Assembly: GCA_030148165.1 (NCBI GenBank)
Contig: JASBTZ010000003.1
Location: 1 to 64,000 of the forward strand
DNA length: 64,000 nucleotides
Origin: Bacteroidota bacterium
GTDB lineage: Bacteria; Bacteroidota; Bacteroidia; Flavobacteriales_D; Crocinitomicaceae
Direction of reading: 5' to 3'
The position numbers and the translations under genes are program-made. Below are positions 38,796 through 54,435 of the stretch, piece by piece. Position 1 is the stretch's first letter; each line of letters begins with the position of its first letter. The notes beneath the pieces are model-generated. The model ran no database searches. It saw nothing but the letters and a program-made list of their open reading frames with translations, and had not been told where the DNA came from.

Positions 38796-38824
38796 TTGAA
38801 TGAATTCGGATATTCATATATTTG
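38796..38824 (+). promoter_or_regulatory. Promoter of the T9SS gene at 38848
   Basis: TTG at 38796-38798 and TATATTTG at 38817-38824 are separated by 18 bases. It lies 24 bases before the ATG at 38848. Because it lies downstream of the alternative ATG at 38800, it supports the shorter gene. Confidence 0.65.
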
Positions 38825-38847
38825 TTTCACTCACAAAAAGAAACATT

Positions 38848-39786
38848 ATGAAAAAACTTCTACTAATTACGGTATTAACCTTTAGCTCTGTTGCTGTTTT
38901 TGGACAGGGGCAGATTGGAAATGGCGATATGGAGGCCTGGGCAAACAATGATGAGCCCGATAACTGGAACAGCTTCTTAACCGGTTCAGGTCAATGGTCA
39001 GGATTCGCAAGTGATCAATGTGATGCATCAACCGATGTCAGACCCGGATCAGCTGGAACATCCAGTTGCAGAATCTGGTCAGAAAGTACATTTGGAATAG
39101 TTGCAAATGGTAATGTGACACTTGGAAGAATCAACATGGGTAGTACTACACCTAGCAGTCCGGATAACTACAATTATTCCGTAACTGCAGATCCTGAATT
39201 TTCTGAGGCACTTACGGATACACCGGATTCCATTGTATTCTGGGCTAAATTCACTCCGAACGGAGGAAATGGTAACGCGCGTATGAAAGCAACACTTCAC
39301 ACGAATTACGACTATCGTGATCCTGAAGATGCTGCTTCTTCGAACGAGGTAGTAGCTCAGGCAGTTCTTAACTATCCTTCTACCGGAGGTAACTGGATGA
39401 GATTTTCAGTACCATTTAACTATTCTGGTCCAGCAACTGTGAATGAATTTATATTGGTAACATTCACAACGAATGAAACTCCTGGAGGAGGAGATGCAAA
39501 TGACGAAGTTCTAATTGATGATGTTGAATTAATCTATAACTCAGGAAGCGTTAGTAGCGTAGATTTGAACGATCTTCAGGTTTACGTTTCAAATGAGGCG
39601 AACACGTTGAATTTCAGTTCATCTCAACCGATATTTGGATCATATGAAGTTTACGATATCTCTGGAGCACTTATTATGGAAGGGACGATTAACGGAAATG
39701 TTTCTTTCGATGTTCCAACAGGGATTTACTTTGTAAAAACCGTTCGCGAAGGAGTAATGTCTGAGCACAAGGTGTTTAAGAAATAA
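38848..39786 (+). CDS. T9SS type A sorting domain-containing secreted protein
   Basis: The start is set at the ATG at 38848, because the signal peptide (MKKLLLITVLTFSSVAVFGQ) begins there and a promoter lies at 38796-38824. The 312-residue protein has a domain beginning QIGNGDMEAW and resembling carbohydrate-binding-like modules: a W-rich N-terminus, then RINMGSTTPSSPDNYNYS and IVFWAKFTPNGG. A T9SS C-terminal sorting region follows (residues ~240-312: GSYEVYDISGALIMEG, FDVPTGIYFVKTVREG). It is exported and probably surface-exposed. A terminator and a TonB receptor gene follow. Confidence 0.82.
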   Translation: MKKLLLITVLTFSSVAVFGQGQIGNGDMEAWANNDEPDNWNSFLTGSGQWSGFASDQCDASTDVRPGSAGTSSCRIWSESTFGIVANGNVTLGRINMGSTTPSSPDNYNYSVTADPEFSEALTDTPDSIVFWAKFTPNGGNGNARMKATLHTNYDYRDPEDAASSNEVVAQAVLNYPSTGGNWMRFSVPFNYSGPATVNEFILVTFTTNETPGGGDANDEVLIDDVELIYNSGSVSSVDLNDLQVYVSNEANTLNFSSSQPIFGSYEVYDISGALIMEGTINGNVSFDVPTGIYFVKTVREGVMSEHKVFKK

Positions 39787-39847: not shown

Positions 39848-42274
39848 ATGAAAGGACTTTTAGCGACATCAATTCTCTTCTTACAATTTATTGTTGTTGG
39901 TCAAACAGGGACACTCACGGGTAAAGTAACCGATCCTGATGGTGCACCTATTATGGGAGCCTCAATTATATTTAGAGGTGATTTTACTGTCGGGGACCTA
40001 AGTGATGAGAACGGAATATACACCATGGATCTACCCGCCGGCACACGTAGGATAGTATGTCGTTACACCTCAATGGTTACAGATACATTTATTGTTGAGA
40101 TCATCGCTAATGAAACAGTAACCCTAGACATTCAACTGAATCCAATTCTACAGGAAATAGAAGACGTTGTTGTCAAAGTTGGAAAATTCGACAAGCCCAT
40201 GGAGGATCAAACGGTTTCTTTAGAAGTTTTAAAGCCGGAAATGATCGAAAATAAGAATACGCGAAGTATTGAAACTGCCCTCGACCAGACTCCCGGCCTC
40301 AACATTCTGGATGGAGAACCACAGATAAGAGGAGGCAGTGGTTTTACCTTTGGAGTGGGATCTAAAGTTGCGGTTATCGTCGATGACATGCCAATGTTGT
40401 CAGGTGATGCAGGCCGACCCGAATGGGGGTTTATTCCTGTTGAAAACATTCATCAGGTAGAAATTATAAAAGGCGCGGCATCGGTTTTATCCGGGAGTTC
40501 TGCATTGTCTGGATCAGTTCATATCAGAACTGCATATCCGGGACTAAAGCCAAAGACAAAAGTGAATGTTTATTCAGGGTTTTATTCAGAACCATCCATT
40601 AGGGGAGCTACGTGGTGGGATGACTACCCTATGATAAGTGGTGCAAACTTTTTACATACGCGAAGAATAAAAAACCTGGATTTAGTTGTTGGCGGAAACG
40701 TTAATTATGATCACGGATATATAGGCCCCCCTATACAGGATTCGACGATAGCAAATGCGCAAGGAGGAAAATTTGCGGACACAGTTTCGAATTTTACAAA
40801 TGCTCAAATGGCAAGTAAAAGAGCCAGGTTGAATTTTAATATTCGTTATCGATCGAAGAAATTCCGTGGGTTAAACTACGGAATTAATGGTAACGGCATG
40901 TTTGCCCAATCGAATATGTCTTTCGCATGGTTAGGAGATTCTGCTCAACTTTACCAGGCTTACCCGGGAGCGTCTTTCCTGCAGGATCAATTTATTTTTA
41001 ATCTTGATCCCTTTTTGAATATTATCACCGATGCAAGTGGAGAACATCATTTTAGAACCAGAATACTCCATGCAGACAATCAAATGACTGCCAATCAATC
41101 TAATCGAGCTACAACCTACTACGGAGATTATATGTTTAAAAAACGCTATAAGGATCTTTATAAGTTTGATTTTATTGGTGGCCTGACGGGAACATTTACT
41201 GATTCCTATGCTAACATGTATGTAGGGTCCGGTAGTCCAAATAATACATTATTGAATGTTTCGGCCTACACGCAAATAGAAAAGAAGTTGAAAGAGTTGC
41301 TCAATCTATCTATCGGTGGAAGATTAGAATATTTTAGCTTGAATGATTCCGTTACGGCTCTAAAACCGATTTTCAGAGCGGGGGCTAGTTTAAAACTATA
41401 TCAGGAGACTTATCTGCGTGCTTCTTACGGTCAGGGATATCGATTCCCTACGATCACGGAACGTTTTATCAGAACCGGTGTCGGAAACTTCGGTGTATTC
41501 CCGAATCCAGACCTAGAACCTGAGAGTAGTTGGAATGCCGAAGTTGGTATTAAACAAGGAATCAAAGTAAAGGGAGTCTATGGTTATCTGGATATAGCTG
41601 GATTTTGGCAGGAATATCAAAATACGATCGAATACATGTTCGGTTTCTGGGGTGACGGAACTGACCCGTCCAATTTTGCCGGATTCCGCTTTATGAACAC
41701 GGGAGAGTCTCGCGTACTTGGTATAGATGTCTCATTTTCAGGGATGGCAAAAATAGGTAAGGAGTCGAAAATTACATTTATGACCGGCTACAATTATATC
41801 TTACCAAAAACGCTAACGCCTGACCGTGTATACGCAGTAGACACAGTTTGGTATGATAAGATCTATACGTATAATTCGACGTCTTTAAGTCCGGAAGAAG
41901 GCATTCTCAAATATCGCTTTCTGCATAATGTGAAAGCAGATATCGAATTTACCTTCAAGAAGAAATTTAGTATTGGAATGAGTGCGAAGTATTTCAGTAA
42001 GATTGAGAACATGGATATCGTAATTAAAGACTTTGAAGAGCTTACTGTTGATCTTCCATATGTTCAAAATATTGAATACATGGATTATTATGAATCTCAT
42101 AGATTTGGCAACTGGATCTTTGATGCACGCATTTCGTATAATTTTTCTGAAATGCACAAGTTGGCTCTGATCAGTGCGAATATCCTGAATCGTTCTTATT
42201 CATTAAGACCCCTAAAGATTGAGGCGCCGCGAACGGTTATGCTACAGTATAGCTTTAAACTTGATAAAAACTAA
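39848..42274 (+). CDS. TonB-dependent receptor with carboxypeptidase-like regulatory domain
   Basis: This 808-residue outer-membrane protein has a signal peptide (residues 1-18), a carboxypeptidase-regulatory-like domain (~20-105: GTLTGKVTDPDGAPIMGASI) and a TonB plug (~130-235: ETALDQTPGLNILDG, IRGGSGFTFGVGSKVAVIVDDMPML, EIIKGAASVLSGSSALSG). A 22-strand barrel ends in VMLQYSFKLDKN. Such receptors import siderophores, cobalamin or glycans in a TonB-dependent manner. It lies between a T9SS gene and the cobalamin riboswitch. It is upstream of, and not under, that riboswitch, so its substrate is uncertain. No SusD partner is adjacent. Confidence 0.9.
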   Translation: MKGLLATSILFLQFIVVGQTGTLTGKVTDPDGAPIMGASIIFRGDFTVGDLSDENGIYTMDLPAGTRRIVCRYTSMVTDTFIVEIIANETVTLDIQLNPILQEIEDVVVKVGKFDKPMEDQTVSLEVLKPEMIENKNTRSIETALDQTPGLNILDGEPQIRGGSGFTFGVGSKVAVIVDDMPMLSGDAGRPEWGFIPVENIHQVEIIKGAASVLSGSSALSGSVHIRTAYPGLKPKTKVNVYSGFYSEPSIRGATWWDDYPMISGANFLHTRRIKNLDLVVGGNVNYDHGYIGPPIQDSTIANAQGGKFADTVSNFTNAQMASKRARLNFNIRYRSKKFRGLNYGINGNGMFAQSNMSFAWLGDSAQLYQAYPGASFLQDQFIFNLDPFLNIITDASGEHHFRTRILHADNQMTANQSNRATTYYGDYMFKKRYKDLYKFDFIGGLTGTFTDSYANMYVGSGSPNNTLLNVSAYTQIEKKLKELLNLSIGGRLEYFSLNDSVTALKPIFRAGASLKLYQETYLRASYGQGYRFPTITERFIRTGVGNFGVFPNPDLEPESSWNAEVGIKQGIKVKGVYGYLDIAGFWQEYQNTIEYMFGFWGDGTDPSNFAGFRFMNTGESRVLGIDVSFSGMAKIGKESKITFMTGYNYILPKTLTPDRVYAVDTVWYDKIYTYNSTSLSPEEGILKYRFLHNVKADIEFTFKKKFSIGMSAKYFSKIENMDIVIKDFEELTVDLPYVQNIEYMDYYESHRFGNWIFDARISYNFSEMHKLALISANILNRSYSLRPLKIEAPRTVMLQYSFKLDKN

Positions 42275-42295: not shown

Positions 42296-42303
42296 TACTT
42301 TTG
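42296..42303 (+). promoter_or_regulatory. -7 element of the B12 riboswitch transcript
   Basis: TACTTTTG matches TAnnTTTG. It would start transcription near 42308-42312, just at the start of the riboswitch. A TTG is not present at the ideal -33 spacing. Confidence 0.5.
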
Positions 42304-42310
42304 TATACGC

Positions 42311-42456
42311 TTTAGGCTCCTGTCAGGATTAATAAGGAATCCGGTGGAAATCCGGAACTGTATCTGCAGCTGTGAGTACTAAAAGTCTTTTTTGATAGAC
42401 CACTGCCTATTTGGTGGGAAGGTGAAAAAGATACGGTACAAGTCAGAATACTTACC
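42311..42456 (+). ncRNA. Cobalamin (B12) riboswitch
   Basis: The leader contains the cobalamin riboswitch core in order: GGCTCCTGTCAGGATTAATA (42315-42334), GGAATCCGGTGGAAATCCGG (42336-42355), which holds the conserved GGTGGAAATCCGG core, AACTGTATCTGCAGCTGTGAG, a variable arm with TTGGTGGGAAGGTGAAAA, and the downstream B12-box segment AAGTCAGAATACTTACC (42440-42456). It binds adenosylcobalamin or related cobalamins and represses the downstream genes. The gene-poor leader (42275-42564) and the BtuB-like gene downstream fit. Boundaries are approximate. Confidence 0.93.
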
Positions 42457-42474
42457 TCAAGCATATTTAAAGAA

Positions 42475-42514
42475 GACTTCAGATTAAAGTCGGACTTTAA
42501 ATGCTTTAGCATTT
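42475..42514 (+). promoter_or_regulatory. Putative riboswitch expression platform
   Basis: Two mutually exclusive small helices are visible: GACTT (42475-42479) with AAGTC (42487-42491), and TTAAAGT (42484-42490) with ACTTTAA (42494-42500). A further hairpin AAATGC-TTTA-GCATTT (42499-42514) follows, then a pyrimidine-rich stretch. This fits ligand-controlled switching; whether at transcription or translation cannot be decided. Confidence 0.45.
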
Positions 42515-42564
42515 CATTTCCTTTAACTGATTTCTTCAACGTTTAACTTTAATAATTAACAACG

Positions 42565-43527
42565 ATGAAGAAAATTATTTCATTCGTGGGTGCAGTATTA
42601 CTCGCATCTACCTCCATTGGTCAAGCTGTGACCTTTGACACCCTCAATCTTAACCCTGAAAGCTATGACAACGGATCATTAGGCAATGGTGATTTCGTCT
42701 TTGACGAATTGACTTTCACGAACTATTATGACACGGCATGGATGTCGTGGAATGGATTCGCGATTTCCAATGTAACAGATACGGTTACAGCTGGCTGGGG
42801 TAATCAGTATGCAGCTTATACAGGCTCAGGTTATGCTGGGTCAGAAAACTTTGCTGTTCACTACCCGCAGGGTACTATTGGTGTAAGTGGCGGTGGAACC
42901 ATTACCGGATTCTGGATCACCAATACAAGCTACGCTGCAATCGCAATGAGGGATGGCGATGCGTTTTCCAAGCAGTTTGGCTCACCACTTAATGCAAGTG
43001 GAGTTCCCGACGGGACAAATGGAGAAGACTACTTTAGAGTATGGATCATAGGAGAAGACCTTACTGGAACGAATAAAGACTCCGTTGAGTTTTATCTGGC
43101 TGACTACCGCTTTGCAAACAACGCACAGGATTACATTGTTGATACCTGGGAGCATATCGATCTTAGCACATTTACATTCGATGTAAGCATCGTTTCTTTT
43201 CGTTTTGAATCAAGTGATGTCGGTCAATGGGGAATAAACACACCAACTTATTTCGCACTGGATAATATCGAATACTCGATGCCTTTAGGCGTGAGTGAAC
43301 AATCTATTGAATCAATAAGATTATACCCGAATCCAGCTTCCGACGAGCTGTTTGTTCAAGGTGGTTCCGGTGTGCTTACTGTAAAAGCACTGAATGGACA
43401 GACGGTCATTGAGTTGAATCATTCAGAATACACGGCCCTTGACGTTAGCTTCTTAAACGCCGGAATGTATTTCGTGCAGCTTGATAACGGCTCACAATCG
43501 TGGTCGCGAAAGCTTATCGTTAAATAG
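42565..43527 (+). CDS. DUF4465 (BtuH-like) protein with T9SS sorting domain
   Basis: This 320-residue protein has a signal peptide (MKKIISFVGAVLLASTSIGQ). The DUF4465-like domain (~20-240) shows WMSWNGFAISNVTDT, AGWGNQYAAYTGSGYAGSENFAV and FALDNIEY. A C-terminal T9SS domain follows (RLYPNPASDELFVQGG, ...VSFLNAGMYFVQLDNGSQSWSRKLIVK). DUF4465-type proteins occur in Bacteroidota B12-uptake loci, where BtuH is a known cobalamin-binding surface protein. Here a T9SS tail replaces a lipoprotein anchor. It is the first gene after the cobalamin riboswitch and overlaps the BtuB-like gene by one base. Confidence 0.85.
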   Translation: MKKIISFVGAVLLASTSIGQAVTFDTLNLNPESYDNGSLGNGDFVFDELTFTNYYDTAWMSWNGFAISNVTDTVTAGWGNQYAAYTGSGYAGSENFAVHYPQGTIGVSGGGTITGFWITNTSYAAIAMRDGDAFSKQFGSPLNASGVPDGTNGEDYFRVWIIGEDLTGTNKDSVEFYLADYRFANNAQDYIVDTWEHIDLSTFTFDVSIVSFRFESSDVGQWGINTPTYFALDNIEYSMPLGVSEQSIESIRLYPNPASDELFVQGGSGVLTVKALNGQTVIELNHSEYTALDVSFLNAGMYFVQLDNGSQSWSRKLIVK

Positions 43528-45494
43528 TGTTCTCAGCGAGGGGATATATTGCTTTTTGCTTGATGCTATCATTGAATGGTTTCGGCCAAAGTGATAGCAT
43601 TCAAGCAATTAAAGAAGTAAAGGTATCTTTTCGCCCGGCTAATTTGCGTCTGCCTGTCTCTAAGCAATACTGTGTTGACAGGATCGATATACTGGAGCTG
43701 GCTCCGAATGATATTGGGGAACTGTTGCAGCGTTTTTCCGGCGTCTATTTGAAGTCTTACGGAGGACTAGGAGGGATGAAGACTTTTTCTTATCGTTCTC
43801 TCGGAAGTCAGCATGCGAGCATAATCCTGGATGGCTTTTCATTAGAGAATACACAGGCCGGTCAGGTCAATCTGGCTCAATTACATACCGATAACGTGGA
43901 AAGTATTGTCAAAACTGACGAGCAGGATTTAGCGGGGGTCTTACCAATTGCGGGTCAACTGTCAGGGGTGAGTTATGCGATTAGTAGTTTTGATAATTCA
44001 TTTCTGAAGAATGGACTTTTTATTAGGGCCTCATTGGGCTATGGGTCTTTTGATACCCAAAACAGCTATCTGAATACGAAATGGCAGCATAATGGATATT
44101 TCATTAATGCTTCCGGAAAATTTCGCCGTAGTGACGGAGACTACCCTTTTAGGTTCGAAAATGGAAACACGATAGATCGCCAGATAAGAACCAATAATGC
44201 CTATCAGGATTATTCTTTTGGGAACGCTTTCGGATATAAGAAAAAGAATCACCAGTTACGGTTGAATTATAGATATAATGAAAGCGAGCAAGGACTGCCG
44301 GGTGCGGTGATATTCTATAACCAAAGTGCTGATGAACAATTGTACACGAAGTTATTCAACGCAGCAGGAGACTATTCTTTCTCAGGTAAGAAATTGAGTA
44401 TGAGGTGGTATAATACCTACACTCGTTCTTATCTAAGATACCTGGATACATCCTATTTGAATAGTGCCGGATTTCTGGATTCTGAGTATTTAAATGAACG
44501 GGTTAATTCGGGTATAGCTGTTAATTACAAGTTCAAGAATCCAAGATTTAATTTGTTCGGAGGAACTGAGCTCGATCGAAGCTCATTGATCTCGTCTGAT
44601 TCAACTTTTGGTGAACCACTTAGAGTGTATAATCGCCAGTTGATCGGAATGGGAGCTAAGTGGGTGAACCTGAATGCAAAGTTACAAATGGGAGGTCACT
44701 ATGTCATGGATAATCACGAATTGAGTAATGAACGTACAAGGTATAAATTGACTCCTATGTTCACCTTGGGTACGAACTATTTGAGACCAAGGAGATTCAA
44801 TCATCGAATCAGCTATCGTAACTCACTTCGTCTGCCTTCATTTAATGAGCTGTACTATAATGGAGTTGGAAATATTGCGCTAAAGCCGGAGGTAGCACAT
44901 CAGTCGAGTTACGAATTGACTTATGAGCCCCACAAAAAGAAATTCCTGAATAGTCTTGTCGCTAATGGGTATTTCAACCGTGTGGAAGATCTGATTCTGG
45001 CTATTCCTACAAAAAACCTATTTGTTTGGTCGATGCAGAATGTGGGGATTGTACACGTATTTGGCTTTGATATCTCTTCGAAATACTTGCTTGAAAGAGA
45101 CAAAATATCCTACAAGATTAATCTTAGCTATAGCTTTCAACGCTCAATGGACATGACAGACAGCGAGTCTCCTACGTATAGGGATCAGATTGCATACATT
45201 CCTTATCACACCGGACTGATGGAGTTTGGAATTAACCTGAAGCAATCCGGGCTACGAATTACAAATTCGTTCGTCGGTTCAAGATATTCACTGAATGAAA
45301 ATATCGAGATGAATCGATTGGATCCTTTCGTGATAACCGACCTATCTGTACACCATGTATTTAAGAGAAAGAACAATAACCTGACACTTCAGTTCAATAT
45401 TAAAAATCTATTTGATCGATCCTATGCATATGTGCGTTCCTACATCATGCCCGGGGTCAATTACCTAATAACATTAAGATATGCGTTACATTAG
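43527..45494 (+). CDS. btuB: TonB-dependent receptor, BtuB-like
   Basis: This 655-residue receptor starts at a GTG (43527) that overlaps the previous stop (TAGTG). Its N-terminal signal peptide ends near FGQS (~residue 21). The plug shows GELLQRFSGVYLKSYGGLGGMKTFSYRSLGSQHASIILDGFSLEN (~residues 53-98). The barrel ends in NIKNLFDRSYAYVRSYIMPGVNYLITLRYALH. It has no carboxypeptidase-like extension. Its place under a cobalamin riboswitch and beside BtuG/BtuH-like genes indicates cobalamin import. The lipoprotein gene overlaps its end by 14 bases. Confidence 0.9.
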   Translation: MFSARGYIAFCLMLSLNGFGQSDSIQAIKEVKVSFRPANLRLPVSKQYCVDRIDILELAPNDIGELLQRFSGVYLKSYGGLGGMKTFSYRSLGSQHASIILDGFSLENTQAGQVNLAQLHTDNVESIVKTDEQDLAGVLPIAGQLSGVSYAISSFDNSFLKNGLFIRASLGYGSFDTQNSYLNTKWQHNGYFINASGKFRRSDGDYPFRFENGNTIDRQIRTNNAYQDYSFGNAFGYKKKNHQLRLNYRYNESEQGLPGAVIFYNQSADEQLYTKLFNAAGDYSFSGKKLSMRWYNTYTRSYLRYLDTSYLNSAGFLDSEYLNERVNSGIAVNYKFKNPRFNLFGGTELDRSSLISSDSTFGEPLRVYNRQLIGMGAKWVNLNAKLQMGGHYVMDNHELSNERTRYKLTPMFTLGTNYLRPRRFNHRISYRNSLRLPSFNELYYNGVGNIALKPEVAHQSSYELTYEPHKKKFLNSLVANGYFNRVEDLILAIPTKNLFVWSMQNVGIVHVFGFDISSKYLLERDKISYKINLSYSFQRSMDMTDSESPTYRDQIAYIPYHTGLMEFGINLKQSGLRITNSFVGSRYSLNENIEMNRLDPFVITDLSVHHVFKRKNNNLTLQFNIKNLFDRSYAYVRSYIMPGVNYLITLRYALH

Positions 45495-46539
45495 TTTATT
45501 ACTGTTAATACCAATGATACTTTCCTGTAAAAAGGACAAAGTGGATCCGACATCGGAAGAACCCCTTACCCTGACAAATGGAATGCTCGTATTGAATGAA
45601 GGATTGTTTCAACAAAACAATTCATCGATCTCGTGGGCGTCGTTTGCTACCAATAATGTTCAGAACCAATACTTTCAATCCCGGACCAATCGCAGTCTGG
45701 GAGACACCGGAAATGACATCCAGCGTTATGGAGGAAAAGTTTATGTTGTAGTTAATGTGAGTAGCACAGTTGAAGTGCTTGATGCAAAGACTTTTGAATC
45801 GATAAAGCAGATCGAAATGAAGGTTGGGACAGCACCAAAGCAGCCGCGATACATTACGTTTGCAGGTTCTAAAGCCTATGTTTCTTGTTATGACGGTTAT
45901 GTTGACGTAATTGACACGACCAGTTTAGAGGTTGAGCTACGTATTCTTGTTGGAGCCAATCCGGAAGCAATGACCATCGCAAATGGAAAACTGTATGTAG
46001 CGAATTCGGGAGGTTTAAATTTTCCACAAATGGATTCAACCGTTTCTGTAATTGACCTGGCAAGCAATATGGAGCTTGAAAAACTAACGGTTGGAATAAA
46101 TCCCGGATCCGTCATAAGAGACCAGGCCGGCGATGTATATGTTATATCGAGAGGAGATTATGGAGCTATTCCTTCCAGGCTTTATCGCATTGATACACAA
46201 CAGGATTCCGTTGTAGCTAACTTTAATTTTGATGTTACTTCCATCTGTAGTTTTGAGGATAATTTCTTGATAGCGAATCAGGATATGTCAAGTGGTTCAA
46301 GTTCGATCGGACTATTCGATCCTGCATCTGAGAGTATGGTCAACCCTAATTATATTAATACGACTTCGGTATCAACGCTTTACGCAATTCAATACAACCC
46401 GAATGATCAGCGTATTTATGTTTGTGATGCACTCAATTACACGAATACAGGCTATGTTAAATCCTTTTCAAACACAGGGACCTATCTAACAGAGTACCAC
46501 GTTGGTTTGATTCCTACTAAAATGATCTTCTATGAATAG
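45481..46539 (+). CDS. btuG: YncE/DUF5074-type beta-propeller lipoprotein (BtuG-like)
   Basis: This 352-residue protein has a lipoprotein signal with lipobox Cys16 (LIPMILSCKKDK). It is followed by repeated beta-propeller blades of the YncE/DUF5074 type: KVYVVVNVSSTVEVLDAKTF, KAYVSCYDGYVDVIDTTSL, KLYVANSGG..VSVIDLASN and YVISRGDYGAIPSRLYRID, i.e. about seven blades. BtuG of gut Bacteroides is a surface propeller lipoprotein that binds cobalamin and caps BtuB. Here the gene lies directly after btuB (14-base overlap), so I infer a BtuG-like role. Specific ligand residues are not verified. Confidence 0.82.
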   Translation: MRYISLLLLIPMILSCKKDKVDPTSEEPLTLTNGMLVLNEGLFQQNNSSISWASFATNNVQNQYFQSRTNRSLGDTGNDIQRYGGKVYVVVNVSSTVEVLDAKTFESIKQIEMKVGTAPKQPRYITFAGSKAYVSCYDGYVDVIDTTSLEVELRILVGANPEAMTIANGKLYVANSGGLNFPQMDSTVSVIDLASNMELEKLTVGINPGSVIRDQAGDVYVISRGDYGAIPSRLYRIDTQQDSVVANFNFDVTSICSFEDNFLIANQDMSSGSSSIGLFDPASESMVNPNYINTTSVSTLYAIQYNPNDQRIYVCDALNYTNTGYVKSFSNTGTYLTEYHVGLIPTKMIFYE

Positions 46540-47494
46540 ATCATTGTTCATCATACTGTTTCTTTCAAACCTGGCATTTGGGCAATCATTTGCACCCGAA
46601 CCGGGACAGGCTGGATCGACTGCTATTCATAAAGATTCGAGTGTTATCATAGACTGGGCTAGCAACGTTAGTGTTCAACGAGGGTATTTAAACATTCAAA
46701 ATCAATCTTTGGGTTTAGCGACATACGGCACTGAGATGGATGCCGTAGGTCCTGCGGATGGAATTAGTGTTATTTCACTGGGGGATAGCGGAGTAGCAGA
46801 GATTACCTTTAATACGCCAATCGTAAATGGTTTCGGACCGGACTTCGCAGTCTTTGAAAATGGATTTATAGATCACTACATGGAGCTTGCTTTTGTTGAA
46901 GTTAGTTCGAACGGAGTCGATTACATTCGTTTTGATGCGACTTCCGAAATTCCAACAGCTGTTCAGTTAAGCAATTTTGATACAGCACACTGCGCTTATG
47001 TCAATAATCTGGCAGGTAAGTATCGGGCCGAATATGGAACTCCATTTGATCTGGAGGAGTTGGTAGGTCAGCCAAACCTTGATGTTAATAATATTCAGCA
47101 CGTTCGCCTTGTCGACGTCATTGGCTCAATTGATAGTTTGGTGGGTAGTATGGATTATTTGGGTAATATGATTAATGACCCTTATCCAACTGAATGGGAA
47201 TCCGGAGGATTTGATCTTGACGCAGTAGGCGTTATCCATAATGCAAATTCAGGAGTAAATGACCTAAAAGATGCCCTAGTTGTGTACCCGAACCCTACTG
47301 ATGGAATCTTACATCTTAGAGGCGATAATATTGCTGTAGTTGAGTTATTTAGTGCAGAGGGTAAACTACTTGTGTATGGGGAGGGTGTTAATAGTGTTCT
47401 TGATTTGAGTAAGCTTCCGGAGGGAATTTATTATTTAAAAATTTATCTTCGGAATGATAGAGTGATATGTCATAAACAAATCATAGCTAGATGA
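46532..47494 (+). CDS. T9SS-exported surface protein in the B12 operon
   Basis: This 320-residue protein has a signal peptide (residues 1-17). Its ~215-residue domain contains ATYGTEMDAVGPADGISVISLG, FGPDFAVFENGFIDHYMELAFVEVSSNG and SGGFDLDAVGVIHN, followed by a T9SS tail (VYPNPTDGILHLRG, SKLPEGIYYLKIYL). I do not assign a biochemical function. The DFAVFENG phrase suggests a conserved family of secreted proteins. The gene overlaps both neighbours (8 bases upstream, 4 downstream) inside the riboswitch-controlled operon, so a cobalamin-related role is inferred. Confidence 0.75.
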   Translation: MNRSLFIILFLSNLAFGQSFAPEPGQAGSTAIHKDSSVIIDWASNVSVQRGYLNIQNQSLGLATYGTEMDAVGPADGISVISLGDSGVAEITFNTPIVNGFGPDFAVFENGFIDHYMELAFVEVSSNGVDYIRFDATSEIPTAVQLSNFDTAHCAYVNNLAGKYRAEYGTPFDLEELVGQPNLDVNNIQHVRLVDVIGSIDSLVGSMDYLGNMINDPYPTEWESGGFDLDAVGVIHNANSGVNDLKDALVVYPNPTDGILHLRGDNIAVVELFSAEGKLLVYGEGVNSVLDLSKLPEGIYYLKIYLRNDRVICHKQIIAR

Positions 47495-48069
47495 ACTTAG
47501 ATCAACCGGAATATTGGAGCATCCGTTACAATGAAAATCAGACCGGGTGGGATATTGGTTATCCATCACCGCCAATAATAGAGTACTTTAATCAGCTTGA
47601 GGATAAAGAAGTTCGAATTTTAATACCGGGCTGCGGGAATGCTTATGAAGCGGAATATCTGCATAGACAAGGGTTTGCCAATGTGCATGTAATCGACCTG
47701 ACAGACGAACCATTGAAAAATCTGAAGTCCAGAGTTCCAGATTTCCCGGATCAGCATATACATCAGGGAGATTTCTTTCGGCATGAAGGTGTATATGATT
47801 ACATTGTGGAACAGACTATGTTTTGTGCAGTAGATCCTGTGATGAGACGAGCTTATGCAGAAAAAGCGCATGAGTTATTGGAAGAAGGAGGAAAATTGGT
47901 AGGTGTATTATTTAACCGTGAATTTGAAGGAGGACCACCTTTTGGAGGAAATATCACAGAATATCTCAGCTATTTTGATCCCTTGTTCTCAGAAGTGATG
48001 ATCGAACCTTGCTATAATTCGATCGAACCTCGATCAGGAACTGAAGTCTTCATTAAAATGGTGAAATAG
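47491..48069 (+). CDS. TPMT-like SAM-dependent methyltransferase
   Basis: This 192-residue protein fits the thiopurine/halide methyltransferase (TPMT) family: NENQTGWDIGYPSPPIIEYF (residues ~13-32), the SAM loop RILIPGCGNAYEAEYL (~43), DLTDEPL, GDFFR, IVEQTMFCAVDP and a final SGTEVFIKMVK. No signal peptide is present, so it is cytoplasmic. It begins in an ATGA overlap with the previous gene, so it is the last gene of the B12 operon, an unusual partner for a B12 uptake locus. Its substrate is unknown; thiols, selenium or halides are family possibilities. Confidence 0.85.
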   Translation: MNLDQPEYWSIRYNENQTGWDIGYPSPPIIEYFNQLEDKEVRILIPGCGNAYEAEYLHRQGFANVHVIDLTDEPLKNLKSRVPDFPDQHIHQGDFFRHEGVYDYIVEQTMFCAVDPVMRRAYAEKAHELLEEGGKLVGVLFNREFEGGPPFGGNITEYLSYFDPLFSEVMIEPCYNSIEPRSGTEVFIKMVK

Positions 48070-51246: not shown

Positions 51247-54200
51247 ATGATTTTTTTCAAGTCTAAAGCAAAATTAATTCTCGTCTTTTTTGCGACTTTA
51301 CTATTGAGTATTCAAGTTAATGCTCAGTGTGGTCCACTTGCAACTCCTAGTTTCACGAACAACGGCCAGAGTGGAATTATGTTTGACATCGTTGCACTGC
51401 AATCGGTCAATATCACACAGTTAGCGATGGATTACGATGGTGGAACCTATAATATTGAGATTTACTATAAGCCCGGCACGCATGTTGGTTTTCAAACAAA
51501 TCCAGGTGCATGGACTCAGCTCGGTAGCATAAATAACTGGAATGCGACTGGGTTGGGAACGAATACATTAATTCCGATAACATTTAGTGAGCTTTTATGT
51601 CCCGGTGAGGTAGGTGCGTTTTACGTTACTTCTTCGCCAGCGGGAGTTTTCGGGTGTAACTATTCAAATGGAACTGGAGTGGGAAATGTTGCTGCAGCAG
51701 ATGCTAATATCCAGATTCTACAGGGAACAGGTAAGGCTTATCCATTTGGCACGAGCTTTCAGCCAAGGGTTCCGAATGTGACGGTATACTATACTTGCAT
51801 GATGAGCTGTTGTTTACCTCCGACAATGACATTTACACAAGAGACGTGCGCAGGGGCTTGTGATGGAACAGCCACAGCAACAGTCGGAGCTGGAGGTATT
51901 CCACCTTACACATATCAGTGGGACGCAGCTGCAGGAAATCAAACAACTCAAACAGCAACCGGTTTATGCGCTGGAACATATACCGTTACCGTTACAGATG
52001 CCACCGGTTGTCAGGCTCAGGGAACAGTTACAGTTACAAGTGGAGCAGTTGGAGCGAATGCAACGATCGATCCGGCTGGACCCTTCTGTGCTTTGGATCC
52101 TCCGACCAATTTAACTGCAGTAGATCCGGGTGGAACCTGGAGTGGGACGGGTATTACGGATCCAAATAATGGAACTTTTGATCCATCAGTAGCTGGTCCA
52201 GGTAGTCACACGATAACCTATACGATTGCGGGACCATGTGGAGCGACGGATACCGAGGTGATAACGGTATATCCAAACGCAAATGCTACGATTACACCGG
52301 CAGGGCCATTCTGTACGGGTGATCCAGCCTTAAATTTAACAGCAGTTGACCCGGGGGGAACCTGGAGTGGAACGGGAATTACAGATCCAAATAACGGAAC
52401 TTTTGACCCTGCTGTTGCAGGAGCAGGAACGCATACTATCACATATACAATAGGGGGGCAGTGTGGTGATGTCCAGACAACCAGTATTGTCGTGAATGCT
52501 AACTATAACTCTACTATTACCCCAGCAGGGCCATATTGTGAATCTGATCCGGCCGTTAATATGAGTGCGGTAGATCCAGGCGGAACGTGGAGCGGAACGG
52601 GAATTACGAATGCGAGCACTGGTACCTTTGACCCTGTTGTTGCCGGAGTTGGAAGCCATGTGATAACTTATACCATTACAGGTTCTTGTGGATCAACTTC
52701 AACAGAAACTATTGTTGTAAATCCTGACCTTGACGCGACGATCACGCCTGTAGGACCATATTGTGAGACTGATCCTGCTATTAACATGACTGCTGTTGAT
52801 CCGGGTGGAACCTGGAGTGGAACGGGAATTACCGATCCTAATAACGGAACTTTTGACCCTGCGGTAGCAGGTATTGGTACACATACCATCACGTACACAA
52901 TAGCTGGTCCATGTGGGGATGTGCAAACCACGACAATTGTCATCAACTCTCAGTTTGATGCAACTATAACACCGGCGGGACCTTACTGTGTTGATGAACC
53001 ATCGACAACATTGACGGCTGTTGATCCGGGTGGAACGTGGAGCGGAACAGGAATTACGGATCCTAACGCAGGTATCTTTGATCCGGCAACCGCAGGACCG
53101 GGTGTACATACAATTACTTATTCAATTGCAGGTACTTGCGGGGACATTCAAACAACAGATATTACTGTCAATGCATTGGATGATGCGACAATTACACCGG
53201 TTGGGCCATATTGTCTTGGCACACCAATCCAAGTGCTAAATGCGGTAACAGGTGGTGGTACATGGACTGGTGTAGGAATTGTAAATTCTGCGACAGGAGA
53301 GTTTGACCCGACAGTTGCAGGACCTGGAATTCATACGATTACTTATTCTACAAACGGACCTTGTCCAGATGTTAATACAACGGATATAGAAGTTCTTGGT
53401 CCATTAACTGTTCAGGCGTTTAGTGATACAGCAGTTTGTGACGGTGCTTCAGTAACGCTAACAGCGCAAGGAGCTGGAGGGGATGGAAATATTTCATTTG
53501 AATGGACAGATCAGACTGGAGCAGTCGTTGGTAGTGGTACAAGCATTACCGTAACGCCTTCGATCACGACAACGTATACGGTAACCTTATCTGACGGATG
53601 TGCGACGCCTGTTGCGACGGATGCGGTTACGGTTACAGTATACCCGATTCCGACCATAAATATTGCTGCTAGCAATACGATGGGATGTCTTCCATTAGAA
53701 GTAACATTCACTAACACATCATTGCCTGTAGGAAGTAACTGTCAGTGGGACTTTGGAAATGGTTCAACAAGCAGTAGCTGTGGATCAGCAATTACGACTT
53801 ACACGAGCGGAGGATGTTTTGATGTTACATTAACTGTTACAGAAAATGGATGTTCAAACTCACAAACTTTTGACGACTTTATATGTACCGATGATGAGCC
53901 GGAAGCTGATTTTATTGCAAATCCATTTATTACTTCTGAATTAAATCCGGAAATTTCTTTCGAGAATCTTTCGACGAATGCACCATACTATGCATGGGAT
54001 TTTGGTGATGAGACGAGCTCTTCTCAGGAAAACCCGACGCATCTTTACCCTTCTGAACCAGGAAACTATATGGTTTGTTTAGTTGCTTTCAATGCATTGG
54101 GATGTATGGACACTGTTTGTAAGCCGGTGGTTATTGAAGAAGAACTGATCTACTACGTTCCGAATACGTTCACTCCGGATGGAGATGAATTTAATCAGCA

Positions 54201-54435
54201 CTGGCAACCAATCTTTACTTCAGGGATTGATATTTACGATTTCAATTTGCTGATCTTCAATCGTTGGGGTGAGGTTATCTGGGAATCGAATGATCCAAAT
54301 ATTGGCTGGGACGGAACATATAAGTTCACTGGTAAACTTGTTCAAGCGGGTATTTACACCTGGAGAATTGAATTCAAAACGATGATGAGTGACGAAAGAA
54401 AGACGACGACAGGACACCTCAACGTATTGAGGTAA
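51247..54435 (+). CDS. T9SS type B surface protein with six tandem 75-residue repeats, SprB-like and PKD domains
   Basis: This 1062-residue protein has a signal peptide (residues 1-26) and an N-terminal beta domain with paired Cys (~27-190). A SprB-like repeat (~195-268: TCAGACDGTATATVGAGGIPPYTYQW) precedes six tandem repeats of exactly 75 residues (272-721), each with two Cys at repeat positions 10 and 60. Then come an Ig-like domain (~722-805) and two PKD-like domains (~806-985: CQWDFGNGS, YAWDFGDE). The C-terminal type-B sorting domain (~985-1062: VPNTFTPDGDEFNQHW, ILVFNRWGEVIWE-like) is the gliding-motility-associated tail. It is probably a surface adhesin exported by the T9SS. Confidence 0.9.
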   Translation: MIFFKSKAKLILVFFATLLLSIQVNAQCGPLATPSFTNNGQSGIMFDIVALQSVNITQLAMDYDGGTYNIEIYYKPGTHVGFQTNPGAWTQLGSINNWNATGLGTNTLIPITFSELLCPGEVGAFYVTSSPAGVFGCNYSNGTGVGNVAAADANIQILQGTGKAYPFGTSFQPRVPNVTVYYTCMMSCCLPPTMTFTQETCAGACDGTATATVGAGGIPPYTYQWDAAAGNQTTQTATGLCAGTYTVTVTDATGCQAQGTVTVTSGAVGANATIDPAGPFCALDPPTNLTAVDPGGTWSGTGITDPNNGTFDPSVAGPGSHTITYTIAGPCGATDTEVITVYPNANATITPAGPFCTGDPALNLTAVDPGGTWSGTGITDPNNGTFDPAVAGAGTHTITYTIGGQCGDVQTTSIVVNANYNSTITPAGPYCESDPAVNMSAVDPGGTWSGTGITNASTGTFDPVVAGVGSHVITYTITGSCGSTSTETIVVNPDLDATITPVGPYCETDPAINMTAVDPGGTWSGTGITDPNNGTFDPAVAGIGTHTITYTIAGPCGDVQTTTIVINSQFDATITPAGPYCVDEPSTTLTAVDPGGTWSGTGITDPNAGIFDPATAGPGVHTITYSIAGTCGDIQTTDITVNALDDATITPVGPYCLGTPIQVLNAVTGGGTWTGVGIVNSATGEFDPTVAGPGIHTITYSTNGPCPDVNTTDIEVLGPLTVQAFSDTAVCDGASVTLTAQGAGGDGNISFEWTDQTGAVVGSGTSITVTPSITTTYTVTLSDGCATPVATDAVTVTVYPIPTINIAASNTMGCLPLEVTFTNTSLPVGSNCQWDFGNGSTSSSCGSAITTYTSGGCFDVTLTVTENGCSNSQTFDDFICTDDEPEADFIANPFITSELNPEISFENLSTNAPYYAWDFGDETSSSQENPTHLYPSEPGNYMVCLVAFNALGCMDTVCKPVVIEEELIYYVPNTFTPDGDEFNQHWQPIFTSGIDIYDFNLLIFNRWGEVIWESNDPNIGWDGTYKFTGKLVQAGIYTWRIEFKTMMSDERKTTTGHLNVLR
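52060..53409 (+). repeat. Six tandem 225-bp coding repeats
   Basis: Six in-frame copies of 225 bases start at 52060, 52285, 52510, 52735, 52960 and 53185. The first five share a near-identical core coding VDPGGTWSGTGITDPNNGTF with minor changes; the sixth is more divergent. Such near-identical tandem DNA is prone to unequal recombination and copy-number change. Confidence 0.9.

Follow-up and report, generated by a model that had tools for sequence, protein, structure and literature searches.

The papers on surface capture of vitamin B12 consulted here deal mostly with lipoproteins of gut Bacteroides, and among the closest described systems is locus 1 of Bacteroides thetaiotaomicron (BtuB1, BtuG1/BtuGH, BtuH1 and BtuJ1). 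We examined a 64,000-nucleotide stretch, here called the window, at the start of contig JASBTZ010000003.1 (assembly GCA_030148165.1) from a bacterium of the Crocinitomicaceae (order Flavobacteriales_D), which encodes, as read from its sequence, an operon of the order riboswitch-btuJ-btuB-btuG-btuH-methyltransferase. This operon shares with locus 1 a cobalamin riboswitch and the BtuJ and BtuH domains, and BtuB1 and BtuG1 are the best PDB matches of the window's BtuB and BtuG. However, the BtuJ and BtuH proteins of the window end in sorting tails of the type IX secretion system (T9SS) and lack a lipobox, and BtuG and BtuH are encoded by separate genes, whereas BT_1490 of B. thetaiotaomicron carries both domains in one chain. 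The fourth gene product has in common with BtuH2 (7biz; PMC8941943) the fold of the B12-binding domain and the Asn399-x-Phe401 positions, but it has neither PKD domains nor a lipid anchor, ends in a T9SS tail and is 12 percent identical over the aligned residues. With the DUF4465/BtuJ family the first gene product shares the domain, the NTP-x-Y motif of the HI loop and the B12-locus context, although the members described in PMC13398666 are lipoproteins or carry periplasmic signals, and the window protein has a T9SS tail. The tails themselves resemble those of NucA and other T9SS type A cargo in the fold of the C-terminal domain and in Por_Secre_tail score; unlike NucA-type cargo, the window proteins are predicted vitamin binders encoded in a vitamin-controlled import operon.

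BtuJ- and BtuH-type capture is already known, and the part that appears to be new is delivery by T9SS, here in environmental Flavobacteriales. A search of the open-licence literature found no paper that couples T9SS with B12 binding, an absence which is not proof, and the papers returned for type IX secretion with cobalamin and BtuB, or for BtuG in Flavobacteria, concerned other topics as far as their listing tells. We consider it likely that this operon captures and imports cobamides under repression by B12, with BtuJ and BtuH, delivered by T9SS and held at the surface, feeding BtuBG.

The original prediction described the leader as a cobalamin riboswitch, and the covariance score is far above the gathering score (Table 1). 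The RF00174 match covers the full model (positions 1-189), with no second match anywhere in the 3.5 Mb assembly, which supports the proposed riboswitch-controlled B12 capture operon, with control by B12 presumed from the aptamer. Folding of 42446-42570 gave -19.2 kcal/mol (z -2.30; 2 of 200 shuffles equal or better), and an inverted repeat was seen by eye at 42484-42500, downstream of the aptamer. A promoter and terminator scan was of no help (9 promoter-like sites against 17.1 expected, 6 terminator-like sites against 3.7 expected). The five same-strand open reading frames (ORFs) that follow overlap at their ends, as had been claimed, by 1, 14, 8 and 4 bases in turn, and the second starts with GTG. 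Across BtuJ loci of the order, the 14-base BtuB-BtuG overlap is repeated in 66 of 106 adjoining pairs and the 8-base BtuG-BtuH overlap in 58 of 77. This recurrence suggests that the btuB, btuG and btuH genes are translationally coupled.

Table 1. Features of the operon and its leader (positions in the window).
Feature	Position	Strand	Basis
Cobalamin riboswitch aptamer, RF00174	42297..42473	+	98 bits vs gathering score 31.5; E 3.2e-23
Rest of leader, presumed expression platform	42474..42564	+	Position
btuJ-like gene (DUF4465)	42565..43527	+	PF14717, 163.5 bits vs cut-off 25; signal peptide by eye; T9SS tail
DUF4465 domain	42736..43269	+	Pfam and phmmer; Tyr123/Tyr229 at the places of BtuJ1 Tyr146/Tyr245
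T9SS type A sorting domain of BtuJ-like protein	43321..43524	+	PF18962, 43.2 vs 27; TIGR04183, 41.3 vs 23
btuB-like TonB-dependent transporter gene	43527..45494	+	phmmer E 2.2e-71 to BtuB1 (8blw_A), residues 10-650; Plug 38.3 bits
btuG-like lipoprotein gene, beta-propeller	45481..46539	+	DUF5074, 61.1 vs 27.2 bits; lipobox ILSC by eye
btuH-like gene, T9SS-tailed	46532..47494	+	Structure model, profile match; core without Pfam match over cut-off
BtuH-like domain, residues 40-236	46649..47239	+	VIA-align to 7biz
T9SS type A sorting domain of BtuH-like protein	47282..47485	+	PF18962, 37.3 vs 27; TIGR04183, 33.3 vs 23
TPMT-like methyltransferase gene, last in overlap chain	47491..48069	+	PF05724, 73.4 bits, over Pfam cut-off

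The first gene had been called BtuH-like, and this claim has to be given up. We rejected the equation of DUF4465 with BtuH because the literature equates DUF4465 with the BtuJ family (PMC12751083 and PMC13398666) and because phmmer matches solved DUF4465 members (9qpm, E 1.6e-14; 9hmu, 2.4e-14; 9fct, 5.5e-14). The DUF4465 profile match and the T9SS sorting domain at the end of the protein were both obtained as foreseen, and gene 1 is, by its sequence, a BtuJ family member and a predicted B12 binder. The ring tyrosine positions are Tyr in 119 and 123 of the 135 BtuJ proteins aligned (the window's and 134 others, after exclusion of two fragments of a broken gene and of five sequences cut by contig ends). 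According to PMC13398666, a DUF4465 protein of Fluviicola taffensis, F2I9N3, is among those reported to bind B12. A sampled genome that we took to be F. taffensis (L055) has one DUF4465 match, which has a YPNP-type tail and lies in the order btuJ-btuB-btuG-btuH. Since there is one such match, F2I9N3 is presumably this tailed protein, and the B12-binding BtuJ of F. taffensis most likely sits in an operon of the present kind with a T9SS tail. The same source predicts that more than 70 percent of the DUF4465 family are lipoproteins, the remainder having periplasmic targeting signals, and its main text contains neither 'T9SS' nor 'type IX'.

The fourth gene product had been described as an unknown surface-type protein with a T9SS tail; the tail stands, whereas the protein is no longer without a relative. 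Its core has no Pfam match over cut-off, the PF18962 tail alone being matched, and apart from the tail no family matches more than 3 of its 100 relatives; the extended BtuH family is not matched by any Pfam model here. Earlier comparisons with PDB sequences, by phmmer and by a profile (A2), returned tail matches and chance-level matches. The structure model, built from 73 sequences, has a mean predicted local distance difference test score (pLDDT) of 91.6, and the core folded alone has 95.7. Compared with 994 chains by VIA-align, the whole model was matched first by BtuH2 (7biz_A; Z 12.4, root-mean-square deviation (rmsd) 3.4, 159 residues aligned, chain 318-592), a segment which PMC8941943 describes as the C-terminal B12-binding domain. 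The second match of the core was BtuG1 (8blw_B, chain 393-660, Z 11.1), followed by CBM32 (Z 9.8). Against 989 chains the core alone again placed BtuH2 first (7biz_B, Z 12.4, rmsd 3.1, 156 aligned), then 8blw_B (Z 10.8), with the next at 9.8; the lower rows align over 121 to 144 residues, fewer than the 156 and 166 of the two BtuH domains. Residues 248-320 of the model match the T9SS-bound NucA tail 8glk_D (VIA-align, Z 11.8).

A profile built from 27 cores (A6; 14 near and 13 divergent) found the BtuH domain of the same BtuG1 chain among PDB sequences (8blw_B 428-497, E 1.3e-4), and the sole other row up to E 10 has E 1.1; a further profile (A7) reached the BtuH domain at E 0.011, whereas with A2 by itself the domain was not matched at E 1. 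Through 8blw_B, N110 and F112 of the window protein align with Asn399 and Phe401 of BtuH2 as a conserved N-x-F, the numbering offset of 100 having been deduced from the construct length and from the agreement of both residue types. According to PMC8941943, these two residues contact the phosphate and the lower ligand. Three overlapping alignments show Asn at the Asn399 equivalent in every row (100/100, 73/73 and 27/27), and the F112 position is Phe in 93 of 100 rows. The reading of gene 4 as an orphan family was rejected once VIA-align, and the divergent relatives added to the profile, provided the link to BtuH. On fold and profile, gene 4 is a divergent BtuH-domain protein, for which B12 binding is predicted.

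The BtuB-like and BtuG-like identities proposed for the second and third genes were both confirmed. B. thetaiotaomicron BtuB1 is the closest PDB match of gene 2, with full-length similarity; the NCBIfam BtuB equivalog TIGR01779 scores 88.9 bits on it, below the cut-off of 599.7. Gene 3, besides its DUF5074 match, aligns with the propeller of BtuG1 (8blw_B residues 47-373; phmmer E 6.5e-67), and a lipobox-like motif is present in 104 of 113 BtuG-like proteins.

The PF18962 tail was found on 125 of the 135 aligned BtuJ proteins and on 99 of 100 BtuH-like proteins, a set from which three truncated sequences were excluded, and a lipobox-like motif in 4 of 103 BtuH-like proteins. With a tail model made from BtuH-like tails only, 11 of 137 BtuJ ORFs uncut by a contig end lacked a tail; nine of these have a lipobox, all in genus g14, the tenth is a 500-residue variant from the same genus and the last comes from a broken gene of which it is one piece. 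Since nine of the eleven carry a lipobox, tail and lipobox replace each other in this sample; T9SS and lipid delivery thus appear to be exchanged between genera. In 6 BtuJ proteins that do have a tail the lipobox pattern matched as well, but within the signal peptide at a point that we read as too early for a lipobox. By eye, g14 loci such as L129, L144, L145 and L154 pair a tail-less, lipobox-bearing BtuJ with a tailed BtuH-like protein in the same operon.

Three T9SS genes were searched for in the genome of the window, and all scored over cut-off (SprA, 2430.5 bits; PorU, 1246.6; PorV, 390.2). The genome encodes at least 150 T9SS tails; the tail as such is common, so that the evidence lies in its conservation in btuJ and btuH. 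The T9SS route would therefore be general for BtuJ and BtuH in the order, with export predicted from the tails. Type A tails are compatible with release, and a type A tail predicts export followed by either attachment or release. The suggestion of an alternative surface-anchoring route via T9SS thus holds for the route, used by kinds of protein that are lipoproteins in Bacteroides, but not for the word anchored, as the tail fits release too.

Conservation was surveyed in 399 genomes sampled from the order, of which 142 encode DUF4465 and 299 have a cobalamin riboswitch (stricter filters). BtuJ loci from 140 of the 142, together with the window's own, made 141; G114, which sits at a contig edge, was excluded. 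Many of these loci are cut by contig ends. The gene order seen most often is btuJ-btuB-btuG-btuH (47 loci), followed by that of the window (13) and by btuJ-btuH-btuB-btuG (10), and in the 104 loci with at least 5.5 kb downstream a BtuB-like gene is present in 100, a BtuG-like gene in 95 and a BtuH-like gene in 88. A home-made regular expression recovered the riboswitch in only 34 of 140 loci and was replaced by a purpose-built covariance model, which matched 136 of 140 at E 0.01; 16 of its hits are circular because their loci supplied 16 of the model's 17 sequences. Among the four loci without a match, two have a btuJ truncated by the contig edge (L142 and L157), in one btuJ begins 174 bases from the edge (L152), and in one BtuJ is the 500-residue variant (L132). 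The gene order thus recurs behind cobalamin riboswitches, and because both the order and the tails recur, the arrangement in the window is not due to chance.

The BtuH-like family reaches further. A scan of named genomes with its profile gave at least 532 stretches, and among the best 80 our profiles place a BtuG-like gene nearby in 59, a BtuB-like gene in 53 and BtuJ in 35, with a riboswitch match in 64. In the same best 80, our own tail model found a tail on 81 of 81 BtuH-like and 35 of 35 BtuJ ORFs uncut at the 3' end, a rate that is biased because the loci were chosen by similarity to a tailed query. In a phylum-wide search 109 of 148 genomes matched, most of the matches listed being to the tail only. 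Matches among those listed that start before position 190 were counted as core matches (G464, at 194-320, was left out), and this gave 16 loci besides the window's, 13 divergent and 3 close. The divergent relatives have a BtuG-like neighbour in 13 of 13 (a partial match in L261) and a BtuB-like neighbour in 12 of 13, adjacency counts that carry no control rate for unrelated genes; one of the three close relatives adjoins BtuG-like and BtuB-like genes, and L272 and L273 do not. Riboswitch matches at E 0.1 accompany 8 of the 13 divergent and 1 of the 3 close relatives, and 10 of the 13 divergent ones have a tail by our model. In 2022 the B12-binding domain of BtuH was described as without known structural homologs and its relatives were counted in gut genomes, whereas it now appears as a widespread family.

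Some of these loci have unusual architectures. In one (L227:5946-7607), preceded by a riboswitch, a gene flanked by btuB- and btuG-like genes encodes a natural 554-residue protein that fuses BtuJ (DUF4465), a BtuH-like domain and a T9SS tail. Another has an open frame of 2122 residues (L237:519-6884), of which 1655-1876 form a BtuH-like domain and which ends in a T9SS-like tail, and a second, stand-alone BtuH-like copy (L237:9001-9981), both behind a riboswitch match. The close BtuH-like proteins at L272:8020-9039 and L273:7950-8939 also lack a riboswitch match within about 8 kb.

We propose that scarce B12 would lead the riboswitch to permit expression of the operon, and that BtuB and the lipoprotein BtuG would together make up the complex for import across the outer membrane. 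Signal peptides would take BtuJ and BtuH across the inner membrane and T9SS (SprA/PorV) across the outer one, PorU would remove the tails, and both proteins would be retained at the cell surface, where they may catch cobamides and hand them to BtuBG. The T9SS tail would in this way substitute for the lipidation of BtuJ and BtuH in Bacteroides. The riboswitch, gene identities, tails, T9SS genes, conservation and tail-lipobox exchange in this scheme come from sequence or from the structure model; repression by B12, export and loss of the tails, retention at the surface, binding of B12 by the window's two proteins and its transfer to BtuBG are steps that we infer, and this counts against the scheme. 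So do several results. No BtuH-like gene turned up in 16 of the 104 BtuJ loci that have at least 5.5 kb downstream, 16 of the best 80 BtuH-like loci (of at least 532) have no riboswitch match at E 0.01, and two of the three near relatives, L272 and L273, have no B12 genes within about 8 kb by our own profiles. Gene 4 shares only 12-18 percent identity with the BtuH domains, and folds of the CBM32 kind score up to Z 9.8. In plain Foldseek, beta-glucuronidases headed the list for the whole model (TM-score below 0.25); the core gave no match at E 0.001, and there an F5/8 type C domain ranked ahead of BtuH2 and BtuG1 (ranks 2 and 3, 3.4e-3). The pocket comparison covers Asn399 and Phe401 of a pocket that also includes Gln333, His476, Tyr510, Trp511, Trp577 and Leu578.

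The alternatives overlap with this proposal and with one another, and their probabilities need not sum to one. The leading one, which we regard as rather unlikely, is that BtuJ and BtuH leave the cell surface after T9SS export and act as diffusible B12 binders that return their cargo to BtuBG in a hemophore-like manner. Type A tails allow release, BtuG keeps its lipobox-like motif while BtuH-like and most BtuJ proteins do not, and B. thetaiotaomicron BtuJ acts on shed vesicles (PMC12751083); the presence of a full-length PorU sortase, however, favours attachment. It is less probable still that gene 4 is a CBM32-like accessory that binds glycans or a partner and does not touch B12, like BtuL. 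The CBM32-like folds mentioned above would fit such a role, and BtuL and BtuK2, although encoded in B12 operons, showed no B12 binding according to PMC12751083. However, the best fold matches of the core are both BtuH domains, with the longer alignments, the profile reaches the BtuH domain, and the Asn399-x-Phe401 pocket positions are kept. That the tails are non-functional and both proteins remain periplasmic is very improbable, given how widely the tails are kept, the presence of the SprA, PorU and PorV genes and the lipobox on nine tail-less BtuJ proteins. Beyond the window, we offer only tentatively the view that T9SS-bearing Bacteroidota secrete BtuJ and BtuH as extracellular B12 scavengers and that BtuBG has long been partnered, throughout the phylum, by the BtuH domain, with freely exchanged delivery of the latter (T9SS tail, lipid anchor, or fusion to BtuG or BtuJ). 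The findings yield a testable set of predicted vitamin-binding T9SS cargos, and the T9SS tail would be added to the DUF4465 targeting signals listed in PMC13398666.

The gene content of the organism fits a B12 user that does not build the corrin ring: the genome has three B12-binding-domain genes and one FecCD permease gene, the latter located elsewhere, and no match to cobM/cbiF, the one biosynthetic family searched.

A methyltransferase had been predicted as the fifth gene, and the Pfam match agrees. It occurs in 33 of the 141 BtuJ loci, in 26 of which it lies less than about 70 bases from the operon, and looks like a local addition with a weak B12 link. Among the BtuH-like proteins, 44 of 100 (A2) show weak similarity to NF033170, a profile for the LIC_13355 family lipoprotein (E 1.3e-5 at best, under cut-off), with the match in the core region in both cases inspected, a hint that BtuH-like domains may occur as lipoproteins outside Bacteroidota. 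Upstream of the riboswitch lies a second pair of a T9SS-tailed protein (38800-39786; tail 26.4 bits, no Pfam match) and a TonB-dependent receptor (39848-42274), whose top NCBIfam matches are heme-type receptors, far below cut-off; a receptor at this position recurs in related loci. Downstream, the protein of 1062 residues encoded at 51247-54435 combines PKD domains with a type IX signal of the CHU_C kind.

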